A stretch of 64,000 bases of DNA from a virus. Shown piece after piece: positions 6,568 through 50,210 of this stretch. The notes beneath the pieces were generated by a model, which saw only the letters and a list, made by a program, of their open reading frames with translations, was not told the origin of the DNA and searched no databases. Where the stretch lies: IMG/VR virus record IMGVR_UViG_3300034102_001587, positions 1-64,000 of that record; one strand, 5' to 3'. The translations under genes and the position numbers were made by a program. Positions within the stretch are counted from its first letter, which is position 1. The number at the start of each line of letters is the position of its first letter.

Positions 6568-6840
6568 ATGATAAAGCTTACTCAACTAAACGAAGCATCG
6601 GAAGTAAAATTCAAAGAATTAAAGCCTATTCAACAAAAACAGGTTGTAGCATTTCAAAAAGTAATTGGTGCAGACCATTCTCAAATTTTTGCTGGTATTC
6701 ACGGAATGGTGGTAGATATTCCAGCAAGAGGTAATTTTGGAACTGGTTATCGTTTTGGCGCCGATACTCTTAAAAAATTATTAGCATTAAAGATTCGTTG
6801 GGTTGAAGCAGATGGTGATGTAATTTCAATAGGATTTTAA
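6568..6840 (+). CDS. Small protein with candidate capsid-targeting N-terminus
   Basis: 90 residues, starting two bases after the upstream stop. It begins MIKLTQLNE, the signal shared by several proteins in this window, with a hydrophobic-x-Glu triplet (LNE, residues 7-9) like the T4 gp21 cleavage motif. The rest is a compact alpha/beta domain with no recognised family (GIHGMVVDIPARGNFGTGYR in the middle). Inference: an internal head protein processed by the prohead protease. Confidence 0.5.
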   Translation: MIKLTQLNEASEVKFKELKPIQQKQVVAFQKVIGADHSQIFAGIHGMVVDIPARGNFGTGYRFGADTLKKLLALKIRWVEADGDVISIGF

Positions 6841-6841
6841 T

Positions 6842-7189
6842 ATGATAAAGTTAAAAGATTTAATAACAGAAGCAAAATCAGATTATCAAGTATATCATAA
6901 AACATACTCAGCAGCAATAGCTACGGCTAAAGAATATGCGGAGAAAAAAGGATATGAAGTTGATGATGAAGATTCTTTTAGAAAAATAGGAATGGGCCCT
7001 AGAAAACCATCCGCTGGTAAGACAAATAGATTTTCAATTGAATTAACTAAAGGTGGAAAGCCACAAAAGAAAATGTTACATATTCAAGTCTATAATATGG
7101 GTACTTTCAAAAGAGATTCTGATGGTTCTTTAGTTAGAAGTATGTATGGTGGTCAAAATGAATACGAATTGAATTGCTATATTAACTAA
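6842..7189 (+). CDS. Small virion-type protein with candidate capsid-targeting N-terminus
   Basis: 115 residues. It begins MIKLKDLITEA with the triplet ITE at residues 8-10. The body has YHKTYSAAIATAKEYAEKKGY, GPRKPSAGKTNRFSIEL and a C-terminal LHIQVYNMG strand; I recall similar uncharacterised small proteins in marine T4-like phages. One base separates it from the previous gene and two from the next, so all three are co-transcribed. Function unknown; head packaging is inferred from the N-terminus. Confidence 0.55.
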   Translation: MIKLKDLITEAKSDYQVYHKTYSAAIATAKEYAEKKGYEVDDEDSFRKIGMGPRKPSAGKTNRFSIELTKGGKPQKKMLHIQVYNMGTFKRDSDGSLVRSMYGGQNEYELNCYIN

Positions 7190-7191
7190 TA

Positions 7192-7959
7192 ATGATTAGA
7201 CTTACTAACATATTATTAGAACATCGTCATCAGACTCCAAATGAAAGAATCTCTAAGTATAAAGAGAGAATTAAACATTTACAAGATAAAATATCTAAAG
7301 CAAAAGATAAAAGTTCTGAAACAGTAAAATTACAAAAAAATCAAATAAAAGTTATTCAACAAACAATGAATAACTTTAAACAATCACAAACAATAAAGAA
7401 GCATAAATCGGAAAGTAAATTATCTGAAATATTAAAAGAGGGTATATTACAAGATGCTTTAATATTCATTTTAGTTAATGGTGCTATTTGGGCAATTAAG
7501 CAAGCCATCCTTTCATTTAGAGGAAAATCGGTTAAAGAAAAAGAAATTGGTAAAGCATATATTAAGTGGTTGGATAGATTGGATAAAAATGATAAATTTA
7601 ATAAGTTTGTTTACTATACTTTAAAAAATGATAGTAAACTTAAATCATTACAATCAAAAGAAAAAAATGGTAAATTTGATTTTGAAAAGTTTACTTATGA
7701 AAAATCATTAGTTAGAAAATGGTTGACAAGCAAACCGGCAGAAAATGAATTGGAAAAAGTATTTAAAGAATTATATCCTGATAAGGATAAAAGTTCTAGA
7801 AATATACCAACCGATACTATGTTAAATGTAACATATTTTCAATGGAAATTACTAACACTAAATAAAGCAGTTGATGAATTTACTAGTGTTTTACAAAGTG
7901 GACAAGTAAAAGGTTTTATAAATCAATACGCAGAAAAGCAAGGATTGGAAAAGATATGA
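7192..7959 (+). CDS. Coiled-coil protein with candidate capsid-targeting N-terminus
   Basis: 255 residues. It begins MIRLTNILLE (triplet LLE at 8-10). Residues about 15-75 form a Lys/Gln/Glu-rich coiled coil. A second LSEILKE string sits near residue 80, followed by a hydrophobic segment (about 90-110, DALIFILVNGAIWAIKQAIL) that may be a membrane helix. The rest is basic and helical. Its stop overlaps the start of the next gene by four bases. No family recognised. A packaged protein with a membrane-active helix would fit ejection or early takeover, but this is speculation. Confidence 0.5.
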   Translation: MIRLTNILLEHRHQTPNERISKYKERIKHLQDKISKAKDKSSETVKLQKNQIKVIQQTMNNFKQSQTIKKHKSESKLSEILKEGILQDALIFILVNGAIWAIKQAILSFRGKSVKEKEIGKAYIKWLDRLDKNDKFNKFVYYTLKNDSKLKSLQSKEKNGKFDFEKFTYEKSLVRKWLTSKPAENELEKVFKELYPDKDKSSRNIPTDTMLNVTYFQWKLLTLNKAVDEFTSVLQSGQVKGFINQYAEKQGLEKI

Positions 7960-8768
7960 TAAACGAATGTATCATTGTATCCAAAGAAGTTGGTGATAAA
8001 TTTATATTAGCTAAAAATAGAGATAGAGCTTACAACCCATCTTTAGAAATTGTTCACACTATTATTGATGGTGTGGAAGTTGCATATCTGCATGATTTAA
8101 TCACAGATTGGAGTGAAGGACTAAATGAAAACGGAATTGGTGTTGTAAACTCAGCACTATTAGTTGGGCACGATGAAGCCGAACATAAGATTGTAAAGAA
8201 GGGTGGGAAGCCAGGTCCTGATGGTGATAAAATGAGAAACATCATTAAACAACCAACACTTAAACAGGCATTAAAAGCATCTATAACATATAAAGGTAAA
8301 AGTGGATTGGCTCTAAAAGGACATACATTTCTATCTTCTCCAAAACATATGATTAGTGTTGAGACCACATCAAAACATAAACCTGATATTAAACTACAAA
8401 ATTCAGAATCAGCAGTGGTTCGTACAAATCACGGACATTTGTTCACCGATGCTGGATATACGAATGGAGAAAAGTATTTAAGTTCTAAAATGAGAAAAAT
8501 ATCAGCTGAAAAATCGGTTGATAAAGTAGATGATTGGAAAGAAATAGCACAAGCTATGAGAAAGGAATACTTTCCAAAAAAACCTATGTTAAATATGAAA
8601 AGGGACACCAAAGAGATGTCTACATCATCACAAACGGTAATGAATCTAACAGACCGTATATTACAAATTACATATTTTAAAGATAAAGTAAAAGAATTTA
8701 AAGGTATAAACAATCAACTACCTAAAGATTACCAACCTAAGATAAAAATACAGGTAATCGAATTATAA
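7956..8768 (+). CDS. Ntn-hydrolase-like protein (C45/choloylglycine-hydrolase-like)
   Basis: 270 residues. The N-terminus MINECIIV places a cysteine at position 5, which would become the nucleophile once the first four residues are removed, as in N-terminal-nucleophile hydrolases. AKNRDR (about 19-24) and GLNENGIGVVNS (about 54-65) match the conserved RN/KN-x-D and NExGL motifs of acyltransferase- and bile-salt-hydrolase-like families. A later TNHGHLF string (about 151) is also typical. These enzymes cleave non-peptide amide bonds. The substrate here is unknown; N-acyl signals or lipid amides are possible. The gene overlaps its upstream neighbour and ends the unit before the baseplate operon. 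Confidence 0.6.
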   Translation: MINECIIVSKEVGDKFILAKNRDRAYNPSLEIVHTIIDGVEVAYLHDLITDWSEGLNENGIGVVNSALLVGHDEAEHKIVKKGGKPGPDGDKMRNIIKQPTLKQALKASITYKGKSGLALKGHTFLSSPKHMISVETTSKHKPDIKLQNSESAVVRTNHGHLFTDAGYTNGEKYLSSKMRKISAEKSVDKVDDWKEIAQAMRKEYFPKKPMLNMKRDTKEMSTSSQTVMNLTDRILQITYFKDKVKEFKGINNQLPKDYQPKIKIQVIEL

Positions 8769-8788
8769 CCCCACTTTTTTCATTATAC

Positions 8789-8797
8789 ATATTTATA
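8789..8797 (+). promoter_or_regulatory. Phage late-promoter motif ATATTTATA
   Basis: Exact match, 24 bases before the ATG at 8822; starts the tail/baseplate operon. Confidence 0.55.
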
Positions 8798-8821
8798 GAC
8801 ATACCTAAAATAGAAAAACGT

Positions 8822-9214
8822 ATGTCAACAGATTTCGAGTTATTTAAAGGAAAAAACCTAAGTTCTCTATTTGAGGACATTTATAACAACCAAACTTCAA
8901 AGAAACAAAGGATAAGTTCTTTAATAGAAGAACTTAAAAAAATGATTAAGCACGCTGGAGATGTGGCAAGTATAGGACCTATCCTATCTTCACTAATTGA
9001 TAGTTCTGTAAAGAACGATGACCAATTGGTTAAACTTGCAACAATTGCAACTAAAATTATAGCATCTGAAAAGAAAACCGAAGGACAAGATGGATTCCTA
9101 ACTGAATTTGAAAAAAATCAACTACTCAAAGAATTAGAAGAAACTAAGCAAGAGGTTGAGAGAGTAGATGATTTGGAGTTTGAGTTGGAAGAATTAAAAA
9201 AATCAATAAAATAA
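8822..9214 (+). CDS. Helical protein preceding the baseplate hub gene
   Basis: 130 residues, first gene of the tail/baseplate unit and one base from the gp5-like gene. It is almost wholly helical, with heptad-like Leu/Glu/Lys patterning in the last 40 residues (LKELEETKQEVERVDDLEFE). A small helical protein upstream of gp5 is common in marine T4-like phages, but I do not recognise a named family. It may be an assembly factor or hub component. Confidence 0.55.
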   Translation: MSTDFELFKGKNLSSLFEDIYNNQTSKKQRISSLIEELKKMIKHAGDVASIGPILSSLIDSSVKNDDQLVKLATIATKIIASEKKTEGQDGFLTEFEKNQLLKELEETKQEVERVDDLEFELEELKKSIK

Positions 9215-9215
9215 G

Positions 9216-10445
9216 ATGCCATTAGAAAATTCAAGAGTAACATCAGCAAGGTCATCACAAAACGCCGTAGGTTCTACTCCAAAAGGATTGGGCACTGTTT
9301 ATGCTATTATTTTGGATGAAACAAGTCCTGTTATTAAAAATAAAGATTTAGATGTAAGTTATGTAGGGGCTATTCAATTTAGATTTAGTGGACAGATGTC
9401 TTCTGATGAAGCAAAATTACCTGTTGCACTACCATTTGATAAAAATTTCAAATCATTACCTGTTAAAAATGAAATAGTTGAAATTATAGTAGCTGGAAAT
9501 GGACAACCTTATTATAAAAGAATTGGAAATGAAGCAAGTCCAAATGTTAATACACCAGAAACTACAATTTCAAAATTATTTTCACCTGAAAAGGATAATT
9601 CTCAAAGTGCACAAGATTATAATAAAGTACAATCAACGGGAATTCAAAGAACTAATGCAGATGAATCAACAAAGTATGATGGCTATGGTGATTATTTTAA
9701 ATTAGAAAATGGAATACACAAATTAAAACTTAATGAAGGTGATATGCTTATTGAAAGCCGATTTGGACAATCAATAAGATTTTCCGCTTACAATAACAAC
9801 GATAGAACGTTTTCACCAACAGTAATAATAAGAAATGGAGAGAGTTCAATTACAAGAAATAATGATAATGCAAATACAATAAATGAAGACGTTGCTAGAG
9901 ATGGTAGTATAATTACATTAAGCTCTAATCAGTATCAATTAAACTTTGCACCCGGTACTGTTGATGATAAAGGAACTTCTGATTTTGAAACAAAACCAAA
10001 TAGTTTTAAATCATATCCATCTACATTAAAAGGAGACCAAATTTTAATAAATTCGGGAAGAATTATATTATCTGCAAAAAATGCGGAAATGATTTTTTAT
10101 TCTAAAAAGAATTACGGATTTATTTCTGATGGTGGATTATCAATTGATAACAAATTAGGAATAGATATAAACGTTGGGGATAATACGAATGTAAAAACTA
10201 ACGATAGAGATGTAAACCTCAACACAGGTAATGGTAAAATAAATTTAGGTGATAAAGAGTTAGAACCTTTAGTAAAGGGTGATAAGTGGGTTTCTATTAT
10301 GGAAGAACTTATTGATGCAATAGTAGCCCAAAATTATTTAACACCATCTGGTCCATCAAAGGTAGGACCTGAAAACTTACCAACATTTAATTCAATAAAA
10401 AGTAAATTAAAAACTGCTTTGAGTAACTTAAACAAAACTTCATAA
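9216..10445 (+). CDS. gp5: Baseplate hub/tail-spike protein, gp5-like, without lysozyme domain
   Basis: 409 residues. Residues about 25-105 resemble the gp5 N-terminal OB-fold (AIILDETSP, GAIQFRF, LPVALPFDKNFKSLPVKNEIVEI). The C-terminal part has Gly/Asn/Asp-rich beta-helix turns (ISDGGLSIDNKLGIDINVGD, KTNDRDVNLNTGNGKINLGD) ending in a short helical tail, as in gp5/VgrG spikes. T4 gp5 (575 residues) has a lysozyme domain between these parts; here it is absent, and the next two genes supply cell-wall hydrolases instead. The stop is followed directly by the next start, so the three are co-expressed. Confidence 0.75.
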   Translation: MPLENSRVTSARSSQNAVGSTPKGLGTVYAIILDETSPVIKNKDLDVSYVGAIQFRFSGQMSSDEAKLPVALPFDKNFKSLPVKNEIVEIIVAGNGQPYYKRIGNEASPNVNTPETTISKLFSPEKDNSQSAQDYNKVQSTGIQRTNADESTKYDGYGDYFKLENGIHKLKLNEGDMLIESRFGQSIRFSAYNNNDRTFSPTVIIRNGESSITRNNDNANTINEDVARDGSIITLSSNQYQLNFAPGTVDDKGTSDFETKPNSFKSYPSTLKGDQILINSGRIILSAKNAEMIFYSKKNYGFISDGGLSIDNKLGIDINVGDNTNVKTNDRDVNLNTGNGKINLGDKELEPLVKGDKWVSIMEELIDAIVAQNYLTPSGPSKVGPENLPTFNSIKSKLKTALSNLNKTS

Positions 10446-11632
10446 TGTCTTGGGAGATATTCAAAAATAATATATTAAATGTTGCTAACAATCCAGACCA
10501 AATAAGAAGTATAGAACAGGTAGCTGAATTGTATGCTAGAGAATATGATGCTGCGATAAAAAGAGGTAAAGATACTGTACATGGTGTACCTTTACAAAAA
10601 GGTAATGTTGAAGCAATGAAACAACTTTTTGTAGTTGCTTTACAAAAAGGTTTAACATCAAAACAACCTTATGATTTGGTTGGTGAAATGGGAAAGGGTG
10701 TTTTAGCATATTGGACAAGTGGTACAATGTATAATACGCCAATTCCCATCATACCAGCTGTTGGTGCTGTTGTAAATGTTGCTGTAATTTCTAATTCAAT
10801 TAGTAATCCAGGCCAATGGCAACCACCACAAAGTTTAGGCGGACAACCAAACTTTGAAATGAGTGAAGAACAAAAACAAGGAGCAAAAGAAGATTTAGAA
10901 AGTGCCAAACAAGAACTTGCAGCAATAGAAAATGACCCAGAAGTTTCTGAAGATATAAAAGAAGCAGCAAAAGAACAAATATCTTATCAAGAAACTAGAT
11001 TAGCCACAAATGAAAACTATTCAGTAGATGATGAAGATGTTAGAACACCACCAATAAGAACTGAAATACCTTTAGATGGTGGTGTTACAAATCCAATTCA
11101 GGTCACAACTAATACACCATCAAGACCAGCAGATGAACCACAAGGACCACCACCAAATGTGGCTGAATCCGATATTGGAAAAAGAATTGTTGCTTATGCA
11201 AATATGGATGTTGGTAAATTAGAAAACCCACTCCCACCGGGCAAACCTGAAAATTGGGGACCTTATGTTTCTTCTGTTCTTGCTGGAGTTGGTCATAAAG
11301 CACCAGCCTTTTGGTGTGCAGCTGCTGTTTCAAGTTGGTTCAAATCAGCGGGAGCAAAATCACCAAATAGTGCAGGATGTGACCAATGGGTTAGTTGGGC
11401 AAAGAAAAATGGATTGTGGAGTACAACACCAGCAATAGGAGCAGCCATATTATATGGTACACCTGCTGATGCACATCATATAGGTATTGTAGAATCGGTT
11501 GATGGAAATATAGTTAAAACGATAGAAGGTAATACTTCTGGTGGTGGGTTTAGTAGAAATGGGGTTGGTGTATTTAAAAAGAAAACTACTACTGCAAAAG
11601 CATTAGGTTATGTACTACCTGTAAAAAAATAA
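10445..11632 (+). CDS. Tail-associated CHAP-type peptidoglycan hydrolase
   Basis: 395 residues. Residues 1-140 form a helical domain plus a hydrophobic stretch; about 140-235 is a charged, Pro-rich linker. The C-terminal domain (about 240-395) has the CHAP signature: nucleophile Cys291 in FWCAAAVSSWF, His344/345 in DAHHIGIVES, and the downstream EGNTSGG segment. CHAP domains cut peptide cross-links or amide bonds of peptidoglycan. Placement directly after the gp5-like hub, where T4 carries lysozyme inside gp5, suggests it sits on the tail tip and opens the wall during DNA entry rather than acting in late lysis. Confidence 0.75.
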   Translation: MSWEIFKNNILNVANNPDQIRSIEQVAELYAREYDAAIKRGKDTVHGVPLQKGNVEAMKQLFVVALQKGLTSKQPYDLVGEMGKGVLAYWTSGTMYNTPIPIIPAVGAVVNVAVISNSISNPGQWQPPQSLGGQPNFEMSEEQKQGAKEDLESAKQELAAIENDPEVSEDIKEAAKEQISYQETRLATNENYSVDDEDVRTPPIRTEIPLDGGVTNPIQVTTNTPSRPADEPQGPPPNVAESDIGKRIVAYANMDVGKLENPLPPGKPENWGPYVSSVLAGVGHKAPAFWCAAAVSSWFKSAGAKSPNSAGCDQWVSWAKKNGLWSTTPAIGAAILYGTPADAHHIGIVESVDGNIVKTIEGNTSGGGFSRNGVGVFKKKTTTAKALGYVLPVKK

Positions 11633-11635
11633 TAT

Positions 11636-12778
11636 ATGTCAGCAATTTCACCAACTAAAAATACAGGCTTAATAGTAGATGATTTTATAGCTTATGCTAC
11701 ACAACATCTTACAACAGTTGGTGGTACTATAAGTACAACTTCATTATATCCACCGACAGGAACTCCAGCACCAGGTATATTAACTTGGACAGGATACTTT
11801 GTTGACCCAGCAACTCCAAGTCAACCAACAGCTTCAGATATAAATGAAGTTCCAACTGAAGAAGAAGCAGAAGCTTTAGCAACTCAAAGAGAATTAGCAG
11901 AGGAAGATATAAAAGCGGTTCAAAGTGTAATTGAAGAAACCGATGATGAAGAAGTAAGACAAGTTGGTAAAAGATTTATAGACGAAACTGTAAATGAAAG
12001 GATACCTATTGGAGAAGCTGTGAAAACAAATAATGAAGTAAACGAAGAAGAAAAAAATAAAAGAAATAAAGAAACTGAAGAAGATGAAAGAAAAAATCCA
12101 CAAAAAAAAGATGCTGGCTCTGGTGGTAAAAAGTATAACAAAAATAAAAATTTAGATTTAATAGAAAGGGCATTAGCTAAAGTTGGTATTACTGATGAAG
12201 CAATAGTAAAAGCGGTAAAAGCAAATGCTTTAAAAGAATCTGGTGGACAACCTATTGTTGAATTTATGAATTATGGTGGTACATCAAATGAAAGAATTAG
12301 GTCTATATTTGGTAAACGAGCTTCAAAATATTCCGATGTAGAACTAAATGGAATTAAATCTAATCCACAAAGTATGGGAGATTTAATGTATGGTCCTGAT
12401 TCGGGTAATGTTGGTAAGTGGCTAGGAAATACATCATCTGGTGATGGCTTCCGATATAGAGGTAGAGGGTTTATCCAAATTACAGGAAAAGCTAATTATA
12501 CGGCAAATTCATTGGCAGTTTACAAAAATACTTCTTTAGTCACAAACCCAGAATTATTACAACAACCAGAACCAGCTGCAGATAGCTGTGCATGGTTTAT
12601 TAATAGAAGTCTTAAAACTTTTTCTAAAAAAATGGGTATTCCAACTCAAGGGGCTTCCCAATCGGATGCTAATTTATTAATTACAAGTATAATTGCTGGT
12701 AGTCCAATAAAGAGGGGTAGTGGTAGTTATTTAGCATCTTTAGTTACAAAAGTTGATGTATATTCTACACAAGTATAA
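11636..12778 (+). CDS. Tail-associated GH19 chitinase/lysozyme-like muramidase
   Basis: 380 residues. An N-terminal segment (about 1-65, with ILTWTGYFVDPATPSQP) resembles in layout the same region of the preceding CHAP protein. A long Glu/Lys-rich linker follows (about 70-165). The catalytic domain (about 170-380) has NALKESGG with candidate acid Glu201 and the GH19 hallmark RYRGRGFIQITGKANY (about 272-287). GH19 enzymes in phages cleave the glycan backbone of peptidoglycan. With the CHAP neighbour it gives the tail both peptide- and glycan-cutting activity. A late motif lies just downstream, so this gene ends or nearly ends the sub-unit. Confidence 0.75.
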   Translation: MSAISPTKNTGLIVDDFIAYATQHLTTVGGTISTTSLYPPTGTPAPGILTWTGYFVDPATPSQPTASDINEVPTEEEAEALATQRELAEEDIKAVQSVIEETDDEEVRQVGKRFIDETVNERIPIGEAVKTNNEVNEEEKNKRNKETEEDERKNPQKKDAGSGGKKYNKNKNLDLIERALAKVGITDEAIVKAVKANALKESGGQPIVEFMNYGGTSNERIRSIFGKRASKYSDVELNGIKSNPQSMGDLMYGPDSGNVGKWLGNTSSGDGFRYRGRGFIQITGKANYTANSLAVYKNTSLVTNPELLQQPEPAADSCAWFINRSLKTFSKKMGIPTQGASQSDANLLITSIIAGSPIKRGSGSYLASLVTKVDVYSTQV

Positions 12779-12804
12779 TAAAATCCCAAAAATATACCAT
12801 TCAA

Positions 12805-12813
12805 ATATTTATA
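12805..12813 (+). promoter_or_regulatory. Phage late-promoter motif ATATTTATA
   Basis: Exact match, 20 bases before the ATG at 12834; a promoter inside the tail region that would drive the gp25/gp6 genes. Confidence 0.55.
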
Positions 12814-12833
12814 AACATAACAAATAAAGACAT

Positions 12834-13310
12834 ATGAATACTGAGAAATTAGTACAAGCCATTCAAATCTTAGTTAAAGAGGAAATTAAACAACAACTTC
12901 CTACTCTTATTAAGGAAGCTGTAAGGTCTGAAATGAAGAAATTGTTGGCTGAACAAAAACAACCAAAAAATACTGGATTAAGTATGACTAAAGCTATTTT
13001 AGGTGAGGAAGTAATTAAAGTAGCAGATACAAAATCAAAAGAATTTAGTAAGAATCCAATGATTAATCAAATACTAAACGAAACAAAAGCAGCTGTTTCA
13101 AATGATGCTGGTGGTTTTAGAACTATGGCGTTTGGACAGGCTGATATGGGTTCAATAGTTGGTAGAACAGCAATGGCTGAAAAAATGGGTTATGGTGAAT
13201 TCGCTAATGGAACTCAAAAAACCGGATTGGGAGTTCAAACGGGCGTAGCTGAATTAGATAAAGCTTTTAATAGAGATTATTCTGAGCTTGTTAAAAGATT
13301 TAAGAAATAA
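12834..13310 (+). CDS. Conserved phage structural protein, unknown
   Basis: 158 residues. N-terminal helix rich in Lys/Glu (about 1-45), then a Gly/Ala/Met-rich segment (GGFRTMAFGQADMGSIVG, about 90-108) and a C-terminal helix. It overlaps the start of the gp25-like gene by one base, so it belongs to the baseplate-wedge operon. No named family recognised; an assembly or wedge-associated role is inferred from position. Confidence 0.55.
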   Translation: MNTEKLVQAIQILVKEEIKQQLPTLIKEAVRSEMKKLLAEQKQPKNTGLSMTKAILGEEVIKVADTKSKEFSKNPMINQILNETKAAVSNDAGGFRTMAFGQADMGSIVGRTAMAEKMGYGEFANGTQKTGLGVQTGVAELDKAFNRDYSELVKRFKK

Positions 13311-13738
13311 TGGCAATTGTATTAGGTAGTAAACTTGTTCAAGACGTAAAAAAATACGAAGATTATGCTATTGGTATAACACTACCTTTGCAGATGACAG
13401 GAAATTCATTTGCTCAGGCATATAAAACAGCAGAACAAGCAAAATCTAATATTAAAAATTTACTTCTCACAAAAAAAGGTGAGAGGCCAATGCAACCGGA
13501 ATTTGGAAGTAATTTGCAAAATCTAATTTTTGATTTTAATGATGACCAACTTCCGGGTAAAATAGAAGAAGCTATTGGAAGTGCCATACAAATTTGGTTA
13601 CCATATGTAAATGTAGAAGATATTTTAGTTGAAAACGGAAATTATGAAAGAGATAATAATTTAGTTAATATTACAATATCGTTTTCAGTTTTAAATAACC
13701 CAGAATTAAACAGTGTTACTTTTAATGTAGCAGCATAA
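13310..13738 (+). CDS. gp25: Baseplate wedge subunit, gp25-like
   Basis: 142 residues, near the usual length of T4 gp25 (132). The family hallmark is plain: AEQAKSNIKNLLLTKKGERP followed by MQPEFGSNLQNLIFD (about residues 43-78), then the EEAIGSAIQIWLPYVNVEDI helix. gp25 forms the core of the wedge with gp6 and gp53 and helps start sheath assembly. It is followed ten bases later by the gp6-like gene, the conserved T4-type order. Confidence 0.9.
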   Translation: MAIVLGSKLVQDVKKYEDYAIGITLPLQMTGNSFAQAYKTAEQAKSNIKNLLLTKKGERPMQPEFGSNLQNLIFDFNDDQLPGKIEEAIGSAIQIWLPYVNVEDILVENGNYERDNNLVNITISFSVLNNPELNSVTFNVAA

Positions 13739-13747
13739 TAAAAAAGT

Positions 13748-15787
13748 ATGGCATTAACTATTACAAATAAGAATTTTAAAAATAAAGGTAGAGATATAAA
13801 ATATCTTAATAAGGATTTTGTAAGTTTTAGAGAAAATCTTATTGAGTATGCTAAGACTTATTTTCCAAAAACGTATTCAGATTTTAATGAGGCTTCTCCT
13901 GGTATGATGTTTATAGAGATGGCATCTTATATTGGCGATTCTTTATCTTATTATGTTGATGATACATTAAAAGAATCTCTAATGGTGTATGCTGAAGATA
14001 TTCAAAATATTTTAGCATTATCTCAATATTTGGGATATAAACCAAAAGTAACTGCGCCAGCAATAACTACATTATCAATTTATCAATTAGTCCCATCAAT
14101 AGGAACTGGCGCTAATAACAAACCAGACCCAAAATATTATTTAAGAATAAGGGAAGGATTACGCACTACATCTAATACAAATGGAGTGGTTTTTAGAACT
14201 ACAAATGTTGTGGACTTTAATGATGAAACAGATAGAGAAATCACAGTATATCAAAGAGATGCAATAACAGGAGAACCAACATTCTATCTTATAAAAAAAT
14301 ATGTACAAGCTATATCAGCTGATGAAAAAACAATAACATTTGATTTTGGAACATACGAACCATTTCAGAGAATTAATTTAGATGATACAAATATAATAGA
14401 AATTTATGATGTAAGAGATTCTAATAATAACAAATATTATGAAGTACCTTATTTAGCACAAGAAATGGTTTTTGCTGATATGCCAAATACTGAAGCAAAC
14501 GATCCTGATTTATATCAATTCAAAACTACAGTACCATATGTTCTTAAAACCATTAGAACTCCAAAACGATTTGTTACTAAAGTAAATGCAGATAGTACAA
14601 TGACTATACAATTTGGAGCTGGTGACCCATCTGCGGCAGATGAACAATTGATTCCAAATCTTAAGAATGTAGGATTGGGATTACCAAATTCAATTAGTAG
14701 ATTGGAAGAATCATTCGACCCAACTAATTTTTTAAAAACAAAAACATATGGAACATCACCAGCCAACACAACAATAACAGTTAAGTATTTAATTGGTGGT
14801 GGTGTAAATTCAAATATTGGTGTAGGTGAATTGACAAGAATAAGTGCAGTTCAATATGAAGAAGATTTGAGTTTATTTTCAACACCAGAATTAGCAACGT
14901 ACAACACAGTTAAAAATTCCATAGCAATAGATAATGAAGTACCTGCAACTGGTGGTAGAAGTGGTGAGACTGTAGAAGAAATTAGACAGAATGCATTAGC
15001 AAATTTTGGTTCTCAAAATAGAGCAGTTACTGCAAAAGATTATCAAGTAAGAGCATTATCTATGCCTGCAAAATATGGTGGTATAGCAAAGGCATTTGCA
15101 ACAGCAGATGGTACGTTAGATAATAATTCACCATCATCAATATTAGCATCTCCAAATAATTTGCAAGAATTTACTGATTTGGTAATGAGCTTTGTAAATA
15201 AACCTGATAGTGAAGAACCTAATGTAGCAAGTGTTAAGCAAGATATACAAAAATTTTTAATTGGAAAAACTTCAAATACAAACGAAAAAAATAATCCATT
15301 TGCAATTAATCTTTATTTATTAGGATATAATTCTGATGGTAGGTTAAGTCAATTAAATAGAGGCGTAAAAGAAAACTTAAAAACTTATTTAAATGAATAC
15401 CGTATCTTAACTGATGGTGTAAATATATTAGATGGTTTTATTATAAATATTGGTATAAACTTTGAAATTATTGTTTACCAAAATTACAATAAATCTGAAG
15501 TATTGACTAAGTGTATAACTGAGTTAAAAGATTACTTCAATACTGAAAATTGGCAATTTAATCAAACTATAAATTTGAGTGAAGTTGAATTGTTAATAGC
15601 AAATGTTGAAGGAGTATCATCAGTACCTATGGTTGAAATTGTAAATAAATGTGGGGGTGGTAGATATACAAATAATTCTTATAACATTACTGCGGCAACA
15701 AAAGATAAGATTGTATATCCATCATTAGACCCATCAGTTTTTGAGGTGAAATATCCTGATTCAGACATAAAAGGTAGAGTAAGATAA
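13748..15787 (+). CDS. gp6: Baseplate wedge subunit, gp6-like
   Basis: 679 residues against about 660 in T4 gp6. The N-terminal FRENLIEYAKTYFPKTYSD and NEASPGMMFIEMASYIGDSL strings are typical of gp6 and baseplate J-like proteins. The GGRSGETVEEIRQNALANFG and VTAKDYQVRALSMP strings mark the conserved central J-like domain (about 395-440). gp6 dimers form the inner ring of the baseplate. Order gp25-gp6 and the one-base overlap with the next gene support a wedge operon. Confidence 0.88.
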   Translation: MALTITNKNFKNKGRDIKYLNKDFVSFRENLIEYAKTYFPKTYSDFNEASPGMMFIEMASYIGDSLSYYVDDTLKESLMVYAEDIQNILALSQYLGYKPKVTAPAITTLSIYQLVPSIGTGANNKPDPKYYLRIREGLRTTSNTNGVVFRTTNVVDFNDETDREITVYQRDAITGEPTFYLIKKYVQAISADEKTITFDFGTYEPFQRINLDDTNIIEIYDVRDSNNNKYYEVPYLAQEMVFADMPNTEANDPDLYQFKTTVPYVLKTIRTPKRFVTKVNADSTMTIQFGAGDPSAADEQLIPNLKNVGLGLPNSISRLEESFDPTNFLKTKTYGTSPANTTITVKYLIGGGVNSNIGVGELTRISAVQYEEDLSLFSTPELATYNTVKNSIAIDNEVPATGGRSGETVEEIRQNALANFGSQNRAVTAKDYQVRALSMPAKYGGIAKAFATADGTLDNNSPSSILASPNNLQEFTDLVMSFVNKPDSEEPNVASVKQDIQKFLIGKTSNTNEKNNPFAINLYLLGYNSDGRLSQLNRGVKENLKTYLNEYRILTDGVNILDGFIINIGINFEIIVYQNYNKSEVLTKCITELKDYFNTENWQFNQTINLSEVELLIANVEGVSSVPMVEIVNKCGGGRYTNNSYNITAATKDKIVYPSLDPSVFEVKYPDSDIKGRVR

Positions 15788-16857: not shown

Positions 16858-16859
16858 AA

Positions 16860-40818: not shown

Positions 40819-40828
40819 TAAATAAGTT

Positions 40829-43009: not shown

Positions 43010-44157
43010 TGATTTACGATAATTTAAAAAAGAATCACAATAATATTGTTGAAATAAAAAACAAAGTATTAATTCATTTTGTTAAAGGACCTTTTGTTGA
43101 AATAAAAGGACCAAAAAAAGCAAAATATAAAATTAATTTTATTGATAATAATTCTGATAAAATTGTATTTTCTTCTGAAATAGAAAACAATATGTGGTCT
43201 AGATGTAGTATAGAATATTTTATTGATTGGCGTATAGAAATATATGAAAACGATAATCATTTCCATACACATTATTTTAATGCAGAAGAAAAAAGAGTTT
43301 ATATAGCATTAGATTCAAAAGCTCTTGGGGATTCTTTAGCTTGGTTTGCTTATGTAGAGGAATTCAGAAAAAAACATAAATGTAAAGTTGTTGTTTCAAC
43401 TTTTATGAATGATATGTTTGAAAATGGGTATCCACATATTGAATTCGTACAGCCGGGTACAAATGTTGAAAATTTATACGCTATGTATTGTGTTGGGTTA
43501 TTTTATAATGAAGATAATTCACATAACATTTTTAAAAATCCAAATGACCCAAAAAGTTCAACTTTACAAAAAATGTGTTCTGATATATTAGGATTAGAAT
43601 ATGAAGAAATTAAACCTAAAATAAAAGAAAGATACATAACAAAAGATTATAATTTAAAACAAGTTTGTATTGGTATGTTTGGTACTGCACAATCTAAGTT
43701 TTGGAATAATCCAACAGGTTGGCAAGAAGTTGTTGATTGGTTAAACGAAAGAGGGTATGTTGTTAGAATTATATCCAAAGAAGGTGATGATTATATGGGA
43801 AATAAAATTCCAAATGGAGTTATCAAACACCCCGATGGTCCAATTGAATTAGTTATGGATGAATTATTAAAATCAAAAGCATTTATTGGAATTGGTAGTG
43901 GGTTAAGTTGGTTAAGTTGGGCATTAGATGTACCTACAGTCTTAATTAGTGGTTTTTCTTATAAATGGGCAGAAATGAAAGATTGTGTTAGAATAGGTTC
44001 TCCGGAAGGGAAATGTGAAGGATGTTTCAATAGAATACGTTTAGATGCTGGTGATTGGAATTGGTGCCCAGACCACAAAGGTACTGAAAGACAATTTGAA
44101 TGTACTAAATTAATTACATCTGATATGGTAATTAAAGAATTAGAGAAATTCTTATAA
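43009..44157 (+). CDS. BAHT/TibC-like protein O-heptosyltransferase
   Basis: 382 residues from ATG at 43009, overlapping the upstream TAA by one base; a TTG nine bases earlier is possible. After a ~90-residue beta N-terminus comes YIALDSKALGDSLAWFAYVE, the start of the GT-B domain, then QVCIGMFGTAQSKFWNNPTG, VVDWLNERGYVVRIISKEGD and FIGIGSGLSWLSWALDVPTV, typical of GT9-like heptosyltransferases. Near the end, Cys336-x2-Cys339-x13-Cys353-x11-Cys365 forms the four-cysteine metal finger known from autotransporter heptosyltransferases (TibC/AAH family, iron-binding). These attach heptose from ADP-heptose to Ser in beta-helical proteins. The next gene can supply the sugar nucleotide. Confidence 0.75.
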   Translation: MIYDNLKKNHNNIVEIKNKVLIHFVKGPFVEIKGPKKAKYKINFIDNNSDKIVFSSEIENNMWSRCSIEYFIDWRIEIYENDNHFHTHYFNAEEKRVYIALDSKALGDSLAWFAYVEEFRKKHKCKVVVSTFMNDMFENGYPHIEFVQPGTNVENLYAMYCVGLFYNEDNSHNIFKNPNDPKSSTLQKMCSDILGLEYEEIKPKIKERYITKDYNLKQVCIGMFGTAQSKFWNNPTGWQEVVDWLNERGYVVRIISKEGDDYMGNKIPNGVIKHPDGPIELVMDELLKSKAFIGIGSGLSWLSWALDVPTVLISGFSYKWAEMKDCVRIGSPEGKCEGCFNRIRLDAGDWNWCPDHKGTERQFECTKLITSDMVIKELEKFL

Positions 44158-44546
44158 TGAAAAAAATTTGGATAAATGGAACTTTTGATGTTTTGCACAT
44201 TGGCCACATCAGACTTATGTTACATGGTGCATCATTGGGCACCTTACGAATGGGGATTGATACGGATGAAAGAGTTCGTTCAAAAAAAGGAGTGGGAAGG
44301 CCGTTCAATACGTTGGCTGACCGTATGGAGTTTCTATCCGCTATCAATGGTGTTGACTCTGTGGTCTCTTTTGATTCTGATGATGAATTAATCGAAAGAA
44401 TAAAAGAATGGGGACCTGATATTATGGTAATTGGAAACGATTATAGTTATGAACAAATAATAGGCGCAGAATTTGTACCAAAAATTGAATATTTCAACAA
44501 AATACCAGGCTTTAGTACATCTAAGATTTTAAAAAATAAAAAGTAA
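44157..44546 (+). CDS. HldE/RfaE2-like sugar-phosphate nucleotidyltransferase
   Basis: 129 residues. The HxGH motif lies in NGTFDVLHIGHIRLM (His14, His17). RPFNTLADRMEFLSAINGVD, PDIMVIGNDYSYEQIIGAEF and GFSTSKIL follow, all closer to the adenylyltransferase domain of HldE than to glycerol-3-phosphate cytidylyltransferase. HldE makes ADP-heptose from heptose-1-phosphate; the kinase domain is absent, so the phage would depend on host heptose phosphate. One-base overlap with the heptosyltransferase gene supports a joint function. Confidence 0.78.
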   Translation: MKKIWINGTFDVLHIGHIRLMLHGASLGTLRMGIDTDERVRSKKGVGRPFNTLADRMEFLSAINGVDSVVSFDSDDELIERIKEWGPDIMVIGNDYSYEQIIGAEFVPKIEYFNKIPGFSTSKILKNKK

Positions 44547-44547
44547 T

Positions 44548-44556
44548 ATACTTATA
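44548..44556 (+). promoter_or_regulatory. Late-promoter variant ATACTTATA
   Basis: Lies in ATATACTTATATATAC, repeated almost unchanged at 47392-47408; 24 bases before the ATG at 44581. Confidence 0.45.
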
Positions 44557-44580
44557 TATACAAACAAAAAAACATAAATT

Positions 44581-44985
44581 ATGTCATTAGATAACATTCC
44601 TACAAAAACAACAATTGAAATCGAAACAGTAAAACTTGATGAAGAAACTTTAAATTCAGTTAAAAACCTTAACACTATGTTGGGTAATTATGTAACTGAT
44701 TTTGGAAATCTTTATTTAAGAAGAAAAGATTTAATGGAAGAATCGAGAAAACTTGATGAAACTGTTATAAGAATTGAAGAAGAATTCAAACAAAAAAATG
44801 ATGAATTCAAAAAAATGATGGATGATTTGGATGATAGGTATCCTGGAGGACGTTTGAACCTTATGGAAGGAACTATCCAATATCAACCTGGAACTCTTTC
44901 AAGAAAACAAATTGCAGAAATGCAAAAACAACAATTAGCTCCACAAGCACCATCTGAAGGTGAAGTAAAAATTGATGGAAATTAA
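44581..44985 (+). CDS. Coiled-coil protein, paralogue of the 40529-40786 product
   Basis: 134 residues. A coiled coil spans about 15-85, then DDLDDRYPGGRLNLMEGTIQ, matching the end of the 40529-40786 product, and a Gln/Pro-rich tail not present in that copy. It has its own late-type motif. Located just past the glycosylation genes. Function unknown. Confidence 0.6.
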   Translation: MSLDNIPTKTTIEIETVKLDEETLNSVKNLNTMLGNYVTDFGNLYLRRKDLMEESRKLDETVIRIEEEFKQKNDEFKKMMDDLDDRYPGGRLNLMEGTIQYQPGTLSRKQIAEMQKQQLAPQAPSEGEVKIDGN

Positions 44986-45001
44986 TAAATGTTAATCTTC
45001 A

Positions 45002-45010
45002 ATATTTATA
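45002..45010 (+). promoter_or_regulatory. Phage late-promoter motif ATATTTATA
   Basis: Exact match, 15 bases before the ATG at 45026. Confidence 0.55.
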
Positions 45011-45025
45011 TAGTATAATAACTAT

Positions 45026-47374
45026 ATGAACAGATTAGCACAATTTTTAATAGAAAGCATATTAGGTGAAGCGGCTCAGATAGACAAAACAATAGTTGTC
45101 TATTCGGGCCGCTTTCAACCTTTTCATAAGGGTCACTACGCAACGTATGACCATTTGGTTAAGAAGTTTGGAAGGGATAATGTTTATGTAGGAACTTCCG
45201 ATGTAACCGATTCAAAGAAATCTCCATTCGGGTTTAAGGAAAAGAAAGTAATAATGACAAAGATGTTTGGTATTCCATCAAACAAAATAGTCAGTATTAA
45301 AAACCCATACGCTCCACAAGAAATACTCAATAAATTTGATTCAGATACTACTGCATTTATAACAGCAGTTGGTGAAAAAGATTCTTCACGTCTAAGTGGT
45401 AAATACTTCAAACCATATAAAGGTAAAGTAGATACTGGATATTTGGATAGGGGGTACGTTTATATAGCACCTGCTCAATCAAATCCTATAAGTGGAACTG
45501 ATGTTCGTTATTGGTTAAGTGCTGGTAGTGAAGCGGATAGAAAGAAAGGTTTTATGAAAGCATATCCAAAGTTTGATGAGCAAATATTCAAAATGATTAC
45601 TCTCAAACTTAAATCTCTTAAAGAATATATTAACGAAGAAATTAAATTAAATGTTAAGATTGGTGACCAAATCTTAATGGGTAAATTTAAAAACAAAAAA
45701 GTTTTTGTTAAATCTATCGGAAAAGATGAATGGGGAATGCCAACAATCAATGGTAAGAAAGCCGTAACATTTAGAATTCCTAAGAAAGATATTAAAGAAG
45801 GACTAGGTGGTGGTGCTGGTGTTGGATTATCTTTGACTGGTGGATATATTAATGGAGCACCAAATCCAAAAGATGTTAAGAAATTAAAATCTAAATTGGA
45901 TAAAGATGGTAGTGAGGAATACACTAAAGTAAAAGAAGATAAAATACCAGGTGGAAAAGCCGAAGGTATGACACTATCGGATATAGCTAAACACCATAAA
46001 GTTAGTCAGCAGACTTTAAAGAACGAATTTATAAAAGGATATGCAGTAGAAAGAGAGCATACAACCGATGTAAATGTTGCAAAAGAAATAGCATTAGACC
46101 ATTTATACGAAGACCCAAATTATTATAGTAAATTATCAAAGATTGAAACCCCACTAAGTGAAGGTTTACTTTTAGAAGGTGGAGCATATGGACATATGAA
46201 TCACCCATTTGACATTCAGATGAATCTTACATTTGGTGACCTTAAAAATATTGTAACTAAAGCTCTTAATGGTGATTTGGAATTAGCAAGAGAAAAAACT
46301 GATGGACAGGCATTGGCAATTAGTTGGGTAAATGGTAGATTGGTTGCCGCAAGAAATAAATCTCATACAAAAAATAAAGGTGAAGGTGCAATGACTATAG
46401 GGCAGGTTGCAAAACAATTTGCTGGTAGAGGTGCTCTTACAGATGCTTATACATTTGCTATGAATGACCTTTCAAAAGCAATAGCAGGATTAACTGAACC
46501 ACAACGTAAGAAGATATTTAAAGATGGTGCATGTTTTATGAATTTGGAAGTAATATATCCAAAGAATTCAAACGTAATACCATATGGACAAAACATTTTA
46601 GTATTTCACGGAACTTTTGAATATAATAAAGAAGGTGAAGTAATCGGAGAGAACCAACAGGCGGCATCTATCTTAGCTGGTATGATTAAGCAAGTTAATA
46701 AGCATGTACAAAATACATACACAATTCAGGGACCCCCAATACAATCATTACCAAAATCTCAAGAACTTTCTAAATTACAAGGAAAGTATATATCAATGGT
46801 TAATAAATTGCAAAACGAATTTAAACTTTCTGATTCAGCTGGAGTAGCAGATTACCATCAGGCTTGGTGGCAAAATTATGTTGAAAAGAATGCAAAAAAA
46901 TTAGACATAAATTCAAAAATAGGGTTGGTTAAAAGATGGGCTTTTGGTGATAAATCAATGCGTATAAATCAAATACAAGACCAGAAGATAAAAGCATGGG
47001 CGGATAAAACTGATAAGCAAGACCAGCAAAAGATTATGAAAGAAAACATAATGAAGTTTGAACAAATCTTTTTAGGTGTTGGTGCTGATGTATTATCATT
47101 TATGGAATCTGTACTTACCGCCAATCCTTCGGATGCAACCAAACAATTAAGAAAAGAATTGGGAACTGCAATTAAGCAAATAAAAGCTTCTGGAAATCCA
47201 CAACAAATTGATAAATTAAAAATTGAATTAAGCCGCTTAAATTCTTTAGGTGGATTTGATAAAATTGTTCCAAATGAGGGTATTGTTTTCGTTTATGGGG
47301 GAAATACCTATAAATTGACTGGAGCATTTGCACCATTAAATCAAATATTGGGTATCTTTAAGTACGGAAGATAA
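45026..47374 (+). CDS. Multidomain protein: NMNAT-like nucleotidyltransferase, DUF5661-like and ligase-like KxDG domain
   Basis: 782 residues. It begins MNRLAQFLIESILGE, a candidate capsid-targeting signal with LIE and LGE cleavage triplets. Residues ~22-190 are an NMN-adenylyltransferase-like domain (GRFQPFHKGH at 28-37, NPISGTDVRYW near 157). About 325-375 has VEREHTTDVNVAKEIALDHL then YEDPNYYSKL, like DUF5661. From ~395, LAREKTDGQALAISW (about 418-432) has the KxDG nucleotidyl-lysine motif of ATP-dependent ligases and capping enzymes, with FMNLEVIYP, VFHG and a C-terminal EGIVFVYGG...YKLTG as motifs III-V. It may act on NAD, RNA or nucleotides in early infection if packaged. Substrate unproven. 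Confidence 0.65.
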   Translation: MNRLAQFLIESILGEAAQIDKTIVVYSGRFQPFHKGHYATYDHLVKKFGRDNVYVGTSDVTDSKKSPFGFKEKKVIMTKMFGIPSNKIVSIKNPYAPQEILNKFDSDTTAFITAVGEKDSSRLSGKYFKPYKGKVDTGYLDRGYVYIAPAQSNPISGTDVRYWLSAGSEADRKKGFMKAYPKFDEQIFKMITLKLKSLKEYINEEIKLNVKIGDQILMGKFKNKKVFVKSIGKDEWGMPTINGKKAVTFRIPKKDIKEGLGGGAGVGLSLTGGYINGAPNPKDVKKLKSKLDKDGSEEYTKVKEDKIPGGKAEGMTLSDIAKHHKVSQQTLKNEFIKGYAVEREHTTDVNVAKEIALDHLYEDPNYYSKLSKIETPLSEGLLLEGGAYGHMNHPFDIQMNLTFGDLKNIVTKALNGDLELAREKTDGQALAISWVNGRLVAARNKSHTKNKGEGAMTIGQVAKQFAGRGALTDAYTFAMNDLSKAIAGLTEPQRKKIFKDGACFMNLEVIYPKNSNVIPYGQNILVFHGTFEYNKEGEVIGENQQAASILAGMIKQVNKHVQNTYTIQGPPIQSLPKSQELSKLQGKYISMVNKLQNEFKLSDSAGVADYHQAWWQNYVEKNAKKLDINSKIGLVKRWAFGDKSMRINQIQDQKIKAWADKTDKQDQQKIMKENIMKFEQIFLGVGADVLSFMESVLTANPSDATKQLRKELGTAIKQIKASGNPQQIDKLKIELSRLNSLGGFDKIVPNEGIVFVYGGNTYKLTGAFAPLNQILGIFKYGR

Positions 47375-47394
47375 TCGTTTTATTTAATTTTGAT

Positions 47395-47403
47395 ATACTT
47401 ATA
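47395..47403 (+). promoter_or_regulatory. Late-promoter variant ATACTTATA
   Basis: Same variant as at 44548, inside ATATACTTATATATAC; 23 bases before the ATG at 47427. Confidence 0.45.
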
Positions 47404-47426
47404 TATACGAATATATCAAAACTAAT

Positions 47427-48110
47427 ATGGCAAAGGAATTTCAAAAAAAGTACATGCATCCAACCCGCCGAAAGTTGGTAAATATGGTTTTAACAGGCGG
47501 TGATTATGAAAAAAATACACAAATATCATTCGCCGGGGCAGATAAACAAAATGTAAAACGTGAGGTTGGTGAAAGATGGACTGATGAAAACGGAAAGTCT
47601 TGGGAGCAACATGCTGCTGGTAAAGTAGAAGTATCCGAATTGGGTGATATAATGGCTGAGACACGAGCTTACCTAGCTGCATTAAATAGTTGCAAGGGTG
47701 ATGCTTGTAATACAATTAAATTAAGTAGAGCTGATAAAAAACTCATCTCAAAAACTGGATATTGTGCAACTTGTTTAGCAAAAAAAGAATTAACAATTAA
47801 ATTAGATGGGTTGTGGGAAGCATATGAAGATTATAAAATATACAATAATATGATTTCGTATGGTAAAGATGTAGTATCACAATTTCAACAAGCGTACAAT
47901 GATGCTAAGCAAGATTATGAAGTTGTGCAAGAAGATGGTACGCTTGAAAAGTGGAGTATGGAAAGAGATGTAAATGAATTAAAGGCAGAAATACTTGCTG
48001 ATATTACACGATTTGAAGAAGAAATACAACAGGCAAAAAAACTAAGAAATGAGGCTTGGGAAAAACTTAAAGATAAAAATTACGATTTAGTTAAACCACC
48101 AATTGATTAA
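47427..48110 (+). CDS. Four-cysteine protein upstream of terminase (candidate small terminase or packaging factor)
   Basis: 227 residues. Four cysteines at 89, 94, 113 and 116 (NSCKGDACN, GYCATCLAK) suggest a zinc site. The C-terminal half is a long helical/coiled-coil region (ERDVNELKAEILADITRFEE). Its stop overlaps the terminase start by one base. In T4 the small terminase gp16 precedes gp17, so position suggests a packaging role, but the sequence does not resemble gp16 clearly. Treat the assignment as inference. Confidence 0.5.
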   Translation: MAKEFQKKYMHPTRRKLVNMVLTGGDYEKNTQISFAGADKQNVKREVGERWTDENGKSWEQHAAGKVEVSELGDIMAETRAYLAALNSCKGDACNTIKLSRADKKLISKTGYCATCLAKKELTIKLDGLWEAYEDYKIYNNMISYGKDVVSQFQQAYNDAKQDYEVVQEDGTLEKWSMERDVNELKAEILADITRFEEEIQQAKKLRNEAWEKLKDKNYDLVKPPID

Positions 48111-49711
48111 TGGCTCAAAATTTAGGTATAACACAAAAGAAATCTTTAAAAGAGATTATTGCAGAAGAATACAAAAAGTGTGCTAGTGACCCTATACACT
48201 TTATGAAAAAATATTGTATGATTCAGCATCCGGTGAGAGGTAAAATACCTTTTCACCTTTTCCCATTTCAGGAAAAAACATTAACTCAATTTGCAAATAA
48301 TCGTTTTAATATAGTATTGAAATCACGTCAAACTGGTATCTCAACGCTATCAGCTGGTTATGCACTTTGGAAAATGTTATTCAATTCGGATTTCAATGTA
48401 TTGGTTATTGCAACAAAGCAAGATGTAGCAAAAAACTTAGTAACTAAAGTAAGGGTGATGCATGAATTACTTCCTTCTTGGTTGAAGGGTGGTTCTTTGG
48501 AAGATAATAAACTTTCCCTTCGTTTACACAATGGTTCTCAAATTAAGGCTATTGCTAGTTCTCCGGATGCAGGACGTTCCGAAGCCCTATCACTTCTTAT
48601 ATTTGATGAGGCTGCTTTTATTGATGATATTGATGAGATTTGGGTGGCAGCTCAATCTACCTTATCAACGGGTGGTAGTTGTATTGCACTTTCTACTCCT
48701 AATGGTGTGGGTAACTGGTTTCACAAAACTTGGTTAGGTGCAGAGGAAGGACAAAATCCATTCAATACAATTAGATTGCATTGGACAGTTCATCCTGAAA
48801 GAGGACAACAATGGAGAGATGAACAAGAAAAACTATTAGGACAAAAGAAAGCAGCTCAAGAATGTGATTGTGATTTCGTATCTTCTGGTGATACTGTTAT
48901 TGATCCTGAACTATTGATGTTTTACAAAGAAACATTTTGCCAAGACCCAATTGAAAAGACTGGATTTGATGGAAACCTTTGGAGATGGGAATATCCAATG
49001 GCAAATGGTTCATATATGGTGATAGCCGATGTGGCGAGAGGAGATGGAAGTGACTATTCAGCCGCACATGTTATGGATATTACAACTTGTACACAAGTTG
49101 CTGAATATAAAGGAAAAATTGATACAAAAGACTTTGGAAACTTCTTAGTCAATCTCTCAACAGAATATAATGATGCATTATTAGTAATAGAAAATGCAAA
49201 TATTGGATGGGCTTGTATTCAACAATGTATAGATAGACAATATAAAAACTTATTCTATATGAGTAAGGATTTAAAGTATGTAGATGTTGAACACCAAATG
49301 AGAAACAAATATAGAGCTGACGAAAAACAAATGGTTGCTGGATTCTCAACAACTTCTAAAACTAGACCTTTGATTGTATCTAAATTAGATGAATACTTTA
49401 GGGAAAAAGCAGTAACAGTTCGTTCAAATCGTTTGATAGATGAATTGTTTACTTTCATATTCATTAATGGTAGAGCAGAGGCTATGAAAAGTTATAATGA
49501 TGATTTGGTGATGGCATTTTGTATTGGGTTGTGGGTAAGAGATACGGCACTTAGATTAAGACAAGAAGGAATAGACCTTACAAAAAGAACTTTGGGTGGT
49601 ATTTCATCAAATCAACAATACGAAGGTGTTTATGGACCATCCGATAGGGATGATAACCCTTGGAAAATGAGAATTGGTGATAATTTTGAGGACTTAACAC
49701 AGTGGTTGTAA
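48110..49711 (+). CDS. gp17: Terminase large subunit, gp17-like
   Basis: 533 residues (T4 gp17 is 610). The ATPase has Walker A-type SRQTGIST (about 72-79), like T4 SRQLGKTT but with Lys missing at the usual position (TGIS), and Walker B LLIFDEAAF (about 161-169). The nuclease domain has Asp in VIADVARGDGSDYS (about 302-314), LVIENANIGWACI, and Asp in NDDLVMAF (about 463). It drives DNA into the prohead through the portal and cuts concatemers. The Walker A change suggests the lysine is supplied by a variant (deviant) P-loop. Confidence 0.92.
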   Translation: MAQNLGITQKKSLKEIIAEEYKKCASDPIHFMKKYCMIQHPVRGKIPFHLFPFQEKTLTQFANNRFNIVLKSRQTGISTLSAGYALWKMLFNSDFNVLVIATKQDVAKNLVTKVRVMHELLPSWLKGGSLEDNKLSLRLHNGSQIKAIASSPDAGRSEALSLLIFDEAAFIDDIDEIWVAAQSTLSTGGSCIALSTPNGVGNWFHKTWLGAEEGQNPFNTIRLHWTVHPERGQQWRDEQEKLLGQKKAAQECDCDFVSSGDTVIDPELLMFYKETFCQDPIEKTGFDGNLWRWEYPMANGSYMVIADVARGDGSDYSAAHVMDITTCTQVAEYKGKIDTKDFGNFLVNLSTEYNDALLVIENANIGWACIQQCIDRQYKNLFYMSKDLKYVDVEHQMRNKYRADEKQMVAGFSTTSKTRPLIVSKLDEYFREKAVTVRSNRLIDELFTFIFINGRAEAMKSYNDDLVMAFCIGLWVRDTALRLRQEGIDLTKRTLGGISSNQQYEGVYGPSDRDDNPWKMRIGDNFEDLTQWL

Positions 49712-49735
49712 ATTATAGTGTTTTGATATTTTCCG

Positions 49736-49744
49736 ATATTTATG
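49736..49744 (+). promoter_or_regulatory. Late-promoter variant ATATTTATG
   Basis: 28 bases before the ATG at 49773. The gene also has a strong ribosome-binding sequence AAAGGAG nine to fifteen bases upstream, which is uncommon in this window. Confidence 0.45.
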
Positions 49745-49772
49745 GTATATGTCAAAATAAAAGGAGACTAAA

Positions 49773-50210
49773 ATGATTAAATTAACAAATATCCTAAAAG
49801 AAGATGAATATGTAAATAAAGCATATTCTAAGGGAGACCAACCAGCCGATAACCCAATTGATGATTATGATGAATTGGATGTTGAGCAAGAAGATATGGA
49901 TGATTTTATAAATTATCTTAAATCTTACTCACAATCGTTAGATGAAGCTAATTGTAATTGTGTTTACGAGGCAGAATATCAGGGTAGAGAAGTAAAGTTA
50001 GGTAAACCAATGCAAGGTGATGTTAAAAAGTTTAAAGTTTATGTTAAGAATCCTAAAACAGGTAAAGTAGTTAAGGTAAACTTTGGAGATAAAACAATGA
50101 GAATTAAGAAGTCTAATCCTGATAGAAGAAAATCCTTCAGAGCAAGACACAATTGTGATAATCCTGGTCCAAGAACAAAAGCAAGATATTGGTCTTGTAG
50201 AAAATGGTAA
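49773..50210 (+). CDS. Small head-type protein with candidate capsid-targeting N-terminus
   Basis: 145 residues. It begins MIKLTNILKEDEY (triplet LKE at 8-10). An acidic segment follows, then a basic C-terminus with RRKSFRARHNCDNPGPRTKA and YWSCRKW, a Cys/His-containing motif I recall from uncharacterised small proteins beside portal genes of T4-like phages. It lies eight bases upstream of the portal gene. Probably a structural or packaged head protein. Confidence 0.55.
   Translation: MIKLTNILKEDEYVNKAYSKGDQPADNPIDDYDELDVEQEDMDDFINYLKSYSQSLDEANCNCVYEAEYQGREVKLGKPMQGDVKKFKVYVKNPKTGKVVKVNFGDKTMRIKKSNPDRRKSFRARHNCDNPGPRTKARYWSCRKW

Follow-up and report, generated by a model that had tools for sequence, protein, structure and literature searches.

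Organization of the locus

The window, which is the whole 64,000-nucleotide stretch that was analyzed, corresponds to positions 1-64,000 of a viral contig 136 kb in length (IMG/VR record IMGVR_UViG_3300034102_001587) with a G+C content of 32% and A-rich starts in many late genes. The contig derives from a T4-like phage; the identity of its terminase is 57% to the enzyme of Flavobacterium phage immuto and 54% to the enzyme of Microcystis phage Mel-JY01. In the window, the head genes, the leader-bearing genes and gene 7956 described below all lie on the plus strand. One cluster encodes a Gp23-type capsid protein, an S77 protease and a scaffold-like protein. The initial annotation had proposed a gp21-like protease, and the gene at 53976-54569 bears this out with matches to Pfam Peptidase_S77 (E 3e-28) and the PHROG head maturation protease (E 3e-50); its product, a type of prohead protease that also occurs in T4-like relatives, is the presumed cleaving enzyme. 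The gene at 56168-57322 encodes a scaffold or prohead core protein that is gp22-like by position and composition, and in which [LI]xE sites are dense: there are 3.1 per 100 amino acids in the scaffold and 4.1 in the protease, with a contig mean of 0.98. The major capsid protein Gp23 (57347-59032) is predicted to lose a propeptide by cleavage after E61 (LLDE/A), and E61-A62 is invariant in an alignment of three phages. The [LI]xE-rich scaffold and protease and the conserved capsid site are consistent, at the sequence level, with a T4-type mechanism. The head cluster also includes a DUF3008 protein (53606-53974) whose first 59 amino acids are 78% identical to a protein of cyanophage S-SCSM1 labelled 'virion protein'.

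Several further features were observed on the contig. A TonB-dependent receptor-like outer-membrane protein (Plug, OMP_b-brl_3) is encoded at 313-2412 and is adjoined by signal-peptide-like genes up to 5873, which is unusual beside phage baseplate genes. A SPCWKGYKQVGMKNKNGKEVPNCVPE module is present at 55131-55970 (about residues 170-200) and recurs in leader proteins of relatives (loci L049, L065, L074 and L418). Three giant fibre-like genes that specify proteins of 3058, 4539 and 4716 amino acids occupy contig positions 64109-104167.

Genes with a shared N-terminal leader

Five genes in the window specify candidate cargo proteins with similar N-termini. The first three are adjacent and encode proteins of 90 (6568-6840; leader MIKLTQLNE), 115 (6842-7189; MIKLKDLITE, codons 6842-6871) and 255 amino acids (7192-7959; MIRLTNILLE, 7192-7221). 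The fourth (45026-47374; MNRLAQFLIE) encodes a 782-amino acid protein that combines an NMNAT/cytidylyltransferase, DUF5661 and a C-terminal KTDG ligase-like domain. The fifth (49773-50210; MIKLTNILKE) is located between the terminase and portal genes and encodes a 145-amino acid protein with a phrog_7595 body. The translations agree with the N-termini given in the initial annotation, as well as with its placement of the triplets ITE, LLE, LIE and LKE exactly at residues 8-10 and of LNE at residues 7-9 in the product of gene 6568. Thus, the processing residues, a hydrophobic residue 8 and Glu-10, are in exact register in four of the five leaders, and gene 6568 is one residue off. Residue 4 is leucine in all five. 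At residue 7 the leaders have L, L, I, F and I, respectively, mostly aliphatic side chains in place of the aromatic residues (Tyr or Phe) of the T4 leader; this position is aromatic in cyanophages. The claim that the proteins are otherwise unrelated also held, as the bodies showed no credible similarity to one another (blastp E >= 0.03). Synonymous codons differ between the leader regions and the upstream DNA is unrelated; therefore, the likeness of the leaders resides at the protein level.

Relatives of these genes illustrate the modularity of the leader. Close relatives of gene 6568 keep [LI]NE/A, and the products of 6568 and 6842 contain no [LI]xE other than that of the leader. The body of 6842 recurs behind many different middle domains, with a leader that is mostly of the MIxLKxILxE type, and the body of 49773 occurs behind many different leaders. 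Gene 7192 is a fusion gene, the two parts of which are encoded separately in relatives, each with a leader (MLKLKDILPE.. in locus L297 and MIKLKSLLKE.. in L273), and a relic internal leader, KLSEILKE, persists at the fusion joint (7417-7440). Gene 45026 and the virion protein gp154 of cyanophage S-CREM2 belong to one family, phrog_395. In some relatives of 45026 the leader is shortened to MNLLNE or MNSLLE with the triplet kept, and its KTDG domain carries its own leader where it is encoded as a separate gene (L034 and L035). In 45026 this domain (46154-47371) displays KTDG, EGIVF and KLTG motifs, which are conserved as KxDG (KTDG or KLDG), EG[IL]xF and KxTG. Matches with Foldseek and VIA were led in part by RNA/tRNA ligases, none of which was significant, and a match with eS6 ribosomal proteins in a PDB profile search (E 1e-4) was rejected as the spurious result of a low-complexity-like stretch.

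A sixth gene, at 128331-132563 of the contig (L006:8331-12563) and so outside the window, encodes a 1410-amino acid protein with the N-terminus MNMNLSELINE. Its leader, MNMNLSELINEILSE, precedes WAYR, matching MSVVDKIVIE before WAFR in immuto, and on this sequence evidence the product is likely a further cargo protein. The initial annotation did not include this gene, the relic leader in 7192 or the short-leader gene 7956 described below.

Occurrence of the leader pattern in T4, relatives and control phages

The pattern M..[LIVMFYW]..[LIVMFYW][LIVM].E was used for counting. Its positions were taken from T4 and its residue classes were picked after viewing the window; independent tests are those on the clade, the control set and the virion proteins. 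In the T4 genome the pattern matches three proteins only, ipII, ipIII and gp24, all of which are known gp21 substrates. The proteins ipI and Alt are not matched, the known leader of the latter being shorter. On the contig, four of 91 genes match (6842, 7192, 45026 and 49773), with 0.13 expected from the internal rate (Poisson p about 1e-5). In the clade set, the pattern with E10 is present in 57 of 990 non-redundant proteins against 2.1 expected, and neighboring registers gave 2-15. The clade loci were fetched by homology to the terminase, 45026, 49773 and 7956, and the count is inflated because leader-bearing genes were among these queries, so that the spread of the matches over 23 unrelated body families is the safer number. 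A crAss-like control set produced one match among 485 proteins, which is chance level. When genes were selected by the start MI[KR]L, with no requirement for E10, 101 of the 137 unique N-termini had E10 (background 7%) and 135 had I or L at residue 7; both counts include many orthologues.

Matches among virion proteins of cyanophages

Mass spectrometry identified 52 virion proteins in cyanophage S-CREM2 (PMC10665884). The pattern occurs in four of these 52, whereas all 124 undetected proteins with a length of about 60 amino acids or more lack it (p 0.007). The matches, all virion proteins, are the SAM hydrolase gp6, gp13, the kinase gp14 and the cytidylyltransferase gp154. The virion NMNAT of S-SCSM1 begins MKSFLQFLKE. 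In that phage, in which the virion labels are those of the GenBank record annotation, the strict pattern is found in one of 48 virion proteins and two of 202 undetected proteins, which is not significant alone; one of the two undetected matches is recombinase-like and likely due to chance. Pooling of the two phages gave p 0.009.

A putative N-terminal nucleophile hydrolase, gene 7956

Downstream of the three adjacent leader genes, gene 7956 (7956-8768) encodes an Ntn-hydrolase-like, PF03417-like protein in which the N-terminus MINE directly precedes a conserved cysteine. The family has [LI]xE/C in all 24 sequences compared, namely 23 aligned sequences plus a jumbo-phage homologue of 43% identity (MTSANNNEFLNE/C): glutamate always precedes the invariant Cys-5, I or L stands two residues before the glutamate, and the residue between them is variable. 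The match to the PF03417 profile is weak, with E 0.15 for 7956 and values of 0.0039 and 1.2e-4, just under the cut-off, for homologues. An AlphaFold model based on 23 close homologues was unusable (pLDDT 48), and a PDB profile search with 7956 gave no match. Cleavage after [LI]xE by the head protease would expose the putative catalytic N-terminal cysteine, a plausible proposal on the sequence pattern that is about evenly poised between right and wrong; autocleavage is the rival explanation.

Distribution in metagenomic contigs and linkage to S77 proteases

At the DNA level, a pattern specifying MIKLxx[IL][LI]xE was found in at least 119 stretches of viral contigs compared with 17 for the reversed pattern. 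Among the matches listed, 141 of 143 are open reading frames of at least 50 amino acids in about 80 body families, which by eye and from motifs alone include P-loop kinase-like, Nudix-like, HAD-like and exonuclease-like proteins. An S77 protease is encoded on 18 of the 40 leader contigs of at least 20 kb among the matches listed versus none of 10 reversed-pattern contigs. It was not found in the other 22 of these 40, which are mostly fragments, nor in 11 crAss records, and the HK97-type S78 protease was found on none of the same 40 contigs. Neither S77 nor Gp23 was found on a 125-kb contig with three leaders, and RaK2, an S77 phage, has a cytidyltransferase without a leader.

Leader families were also noted in the relatives immuto and Mel-JY01. 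In immuto, an isolated phage of host LMO8, repeated families MKKSQLRxIIKEEL, MENFDLKKFLVENRLT and MKKQILSEQF occur in a block of genes at 102-119 kb (L007:2295-18932), upstream of the terminase. Genes 24569, 103366 and 116531 of immuto, along with others in this block, are predicted to encode cargo. Mel-JY01 has three tandem paralogues that start MIKLxSLxxExISDRVWH (L012:11276-13718). Separately, at the scaffold C-terminus in the window (57203-57322), RFKQLAGIVK is similar to RMQxLAGIITES within two immuto leaders (L010:25061 and L007:11676). Scaffold C-termini end R[FWM]xxLAGI[IV]K and RMQxLAGI occurs in these two leaders; on these few cases, cargo leaders may possibly mimic the scaffold C-terminus.

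Discussion

In the T4 capsid-targeting sequence (CTS), residues 4 and 7 are responsible for targeting and residues 8 and 10 for cleavage, and ten residues are sufficient (PMC9026906). The leaders described here share with T4 IPI-III a length of ten residues, hydrophobic positions 4, 7 and 8, Glu-10 and unrelated mature bodies, and in both systems an S77 protease (gp21 in T4) is encoded with the head genes. This modular pattern with its fixed register shows links with phages that encode S77 and with proteins already known from virions. The initial reading of the set as head cargo is well supported by the T4 CTS positions, by the many unrelated bodies in S77 phages and by the matches in T4 and S-CREM2, and the shared N-terminus is very probably a T4-type capsid-targeting sequence that marks a cargo set in a new lineage. 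Nevertheless, the leader consensus is MI[KR]Lxx[IL]LxE and not the T4 leader, and the cargo differs from the T4 internal proteins in being mostly unrelated to them, in including a large multidomain enzyme and in comprising many families in relatives.

An unlikely alternative is that the leader is an amphipathic peptide that targets proteins to the membrane, a replication site or a chaperone, with E10 as a helix cap instead of a cut site. It would accommodate the 22 of 40 listed leader contigs in which S77 was not found, and cleavage in the phage itself is extrapolated from T4. However, the leaders agree with the mapped T4 CTS in register and at positions 4, 7, 8 and 10, the pattern selects gp21 substrates in T4 and virion proteins in S-CREM2, and the short-leader relatives of 45026 lose the rest of the leader yet keep [LI]xE. 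It is still less likely that the genes are diverged paralogues or share duplicated 5′ DNA (a start region or promoter), such that the common N-terminus reflects history and not a signal: the adjacency of three genes (6568-7959) and clear paralogy within some families of relatives, for example at 60276-62718 in Mel-JY01, favor this view, but the bodies are unrelated, the leaders differ in synonymous codons and in the DNA upstream, and the 23 to 80 body families are alike in the first ten residues only. Most improbable is that composition or translation-start bias of A+T-rich phages generates M-I-K-L and E by chance, as the low G+C content and A-rich starts might allow, since the peak is sharp and solely at residue 10, is absent from the crAss-like control, and the reversed DNA pattern is rare. 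Overall, chance, paralogy and start-codon bias were each tested and disfavored by the clade and control counts, the reversed pattern and the comparison of bodies and DNA.

If the leader is a capsid-targeting sequence, residues 2-7, with hydrophobic positions 4 and 7, would bind the prohead core during assembly as in T4, and leader-bearing proteins would thereby co-assemble within the prohead. Cleavage by the S77 protease after Glu-10 (Glu-9 in 6568, and after shorter leaders in some relatives) would then remove the leader, and the head would retain the mature proteins, which would enter the host together with the DNA. By analogy with T4, the proposed cargo set of 6568, 6842, 7192, 45026 and 49773, together with 128331 outside the window, is expected to be in the head of its own phage, cut after E10 (or E9), and injected. 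The leader is very probably a portable module that has been acquired and carried along by different genes.

The short [LI]xE leaders of relatives (MNLLNE, MKSLKE) are akin to that of T4 Alt, and gene 7956 has one that is shorter still; in contrast to Alt, no ADP-ribosyltransferase was identified among the window genes. Alt is also cut at its C-terminus. The N-terminal cut in Alt, which has a short leader, is at ITE-6 (PMC5694885). Virion-associated NMNAT/cytidylyltransferases are known in cyanophages S-CREM2, S-SCSM1, S-CBWM1 and S-SZBM1 (PMC10665884; PMC9602691), and a targeting sequence is unmentioned in either report. These proteins resemble 45026 in phrog_395 membership, as established for gp154, and in CTS-type leaders (MKNFSSFLTE in S-CREM2 and MKSFLQFLKE in S-SCSM1), whereas 45026 adds DUF5661 and the KTDG ligase-like domain. 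The inner-body proteins of phiKZ and SPN3US similarly have propeptides that are stripped by a head protease, but there the protease is S80, the propeptides are long and the motif is S/A-x-E.

The leader reaches wider than described in the literature searched, and a text search for leader strings returned no paper. More tentatively, effector delivery directed by a portable leader that can be read from sequence might be widespread among T4-like phages that infect Bacteroidota or other environmental hosts, spanning dozens of families, with the head protease activating at least one zymogen (7956) inside the particle, a broader proposal that leans toward the doubtful side. The non-DNA content that phages inject is mostly unknown because head cargo has been found solely by virion proteomics. 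All matches of the T4-derived ten-residue pattern are head-protease substrates in T4 and virion proteins in S-CREM2, whereas in S-SCSM1 the pattern gave no separation. If the pattern holds, head cargo would be predictable from sequence in uncultured T4-like phages, the presence of NMNAT-like proteins and kinases in cyanophage virions would be explained, and the leader would provide a short tag with which proteins could be loaded into the heads of Bacteroidota phages.
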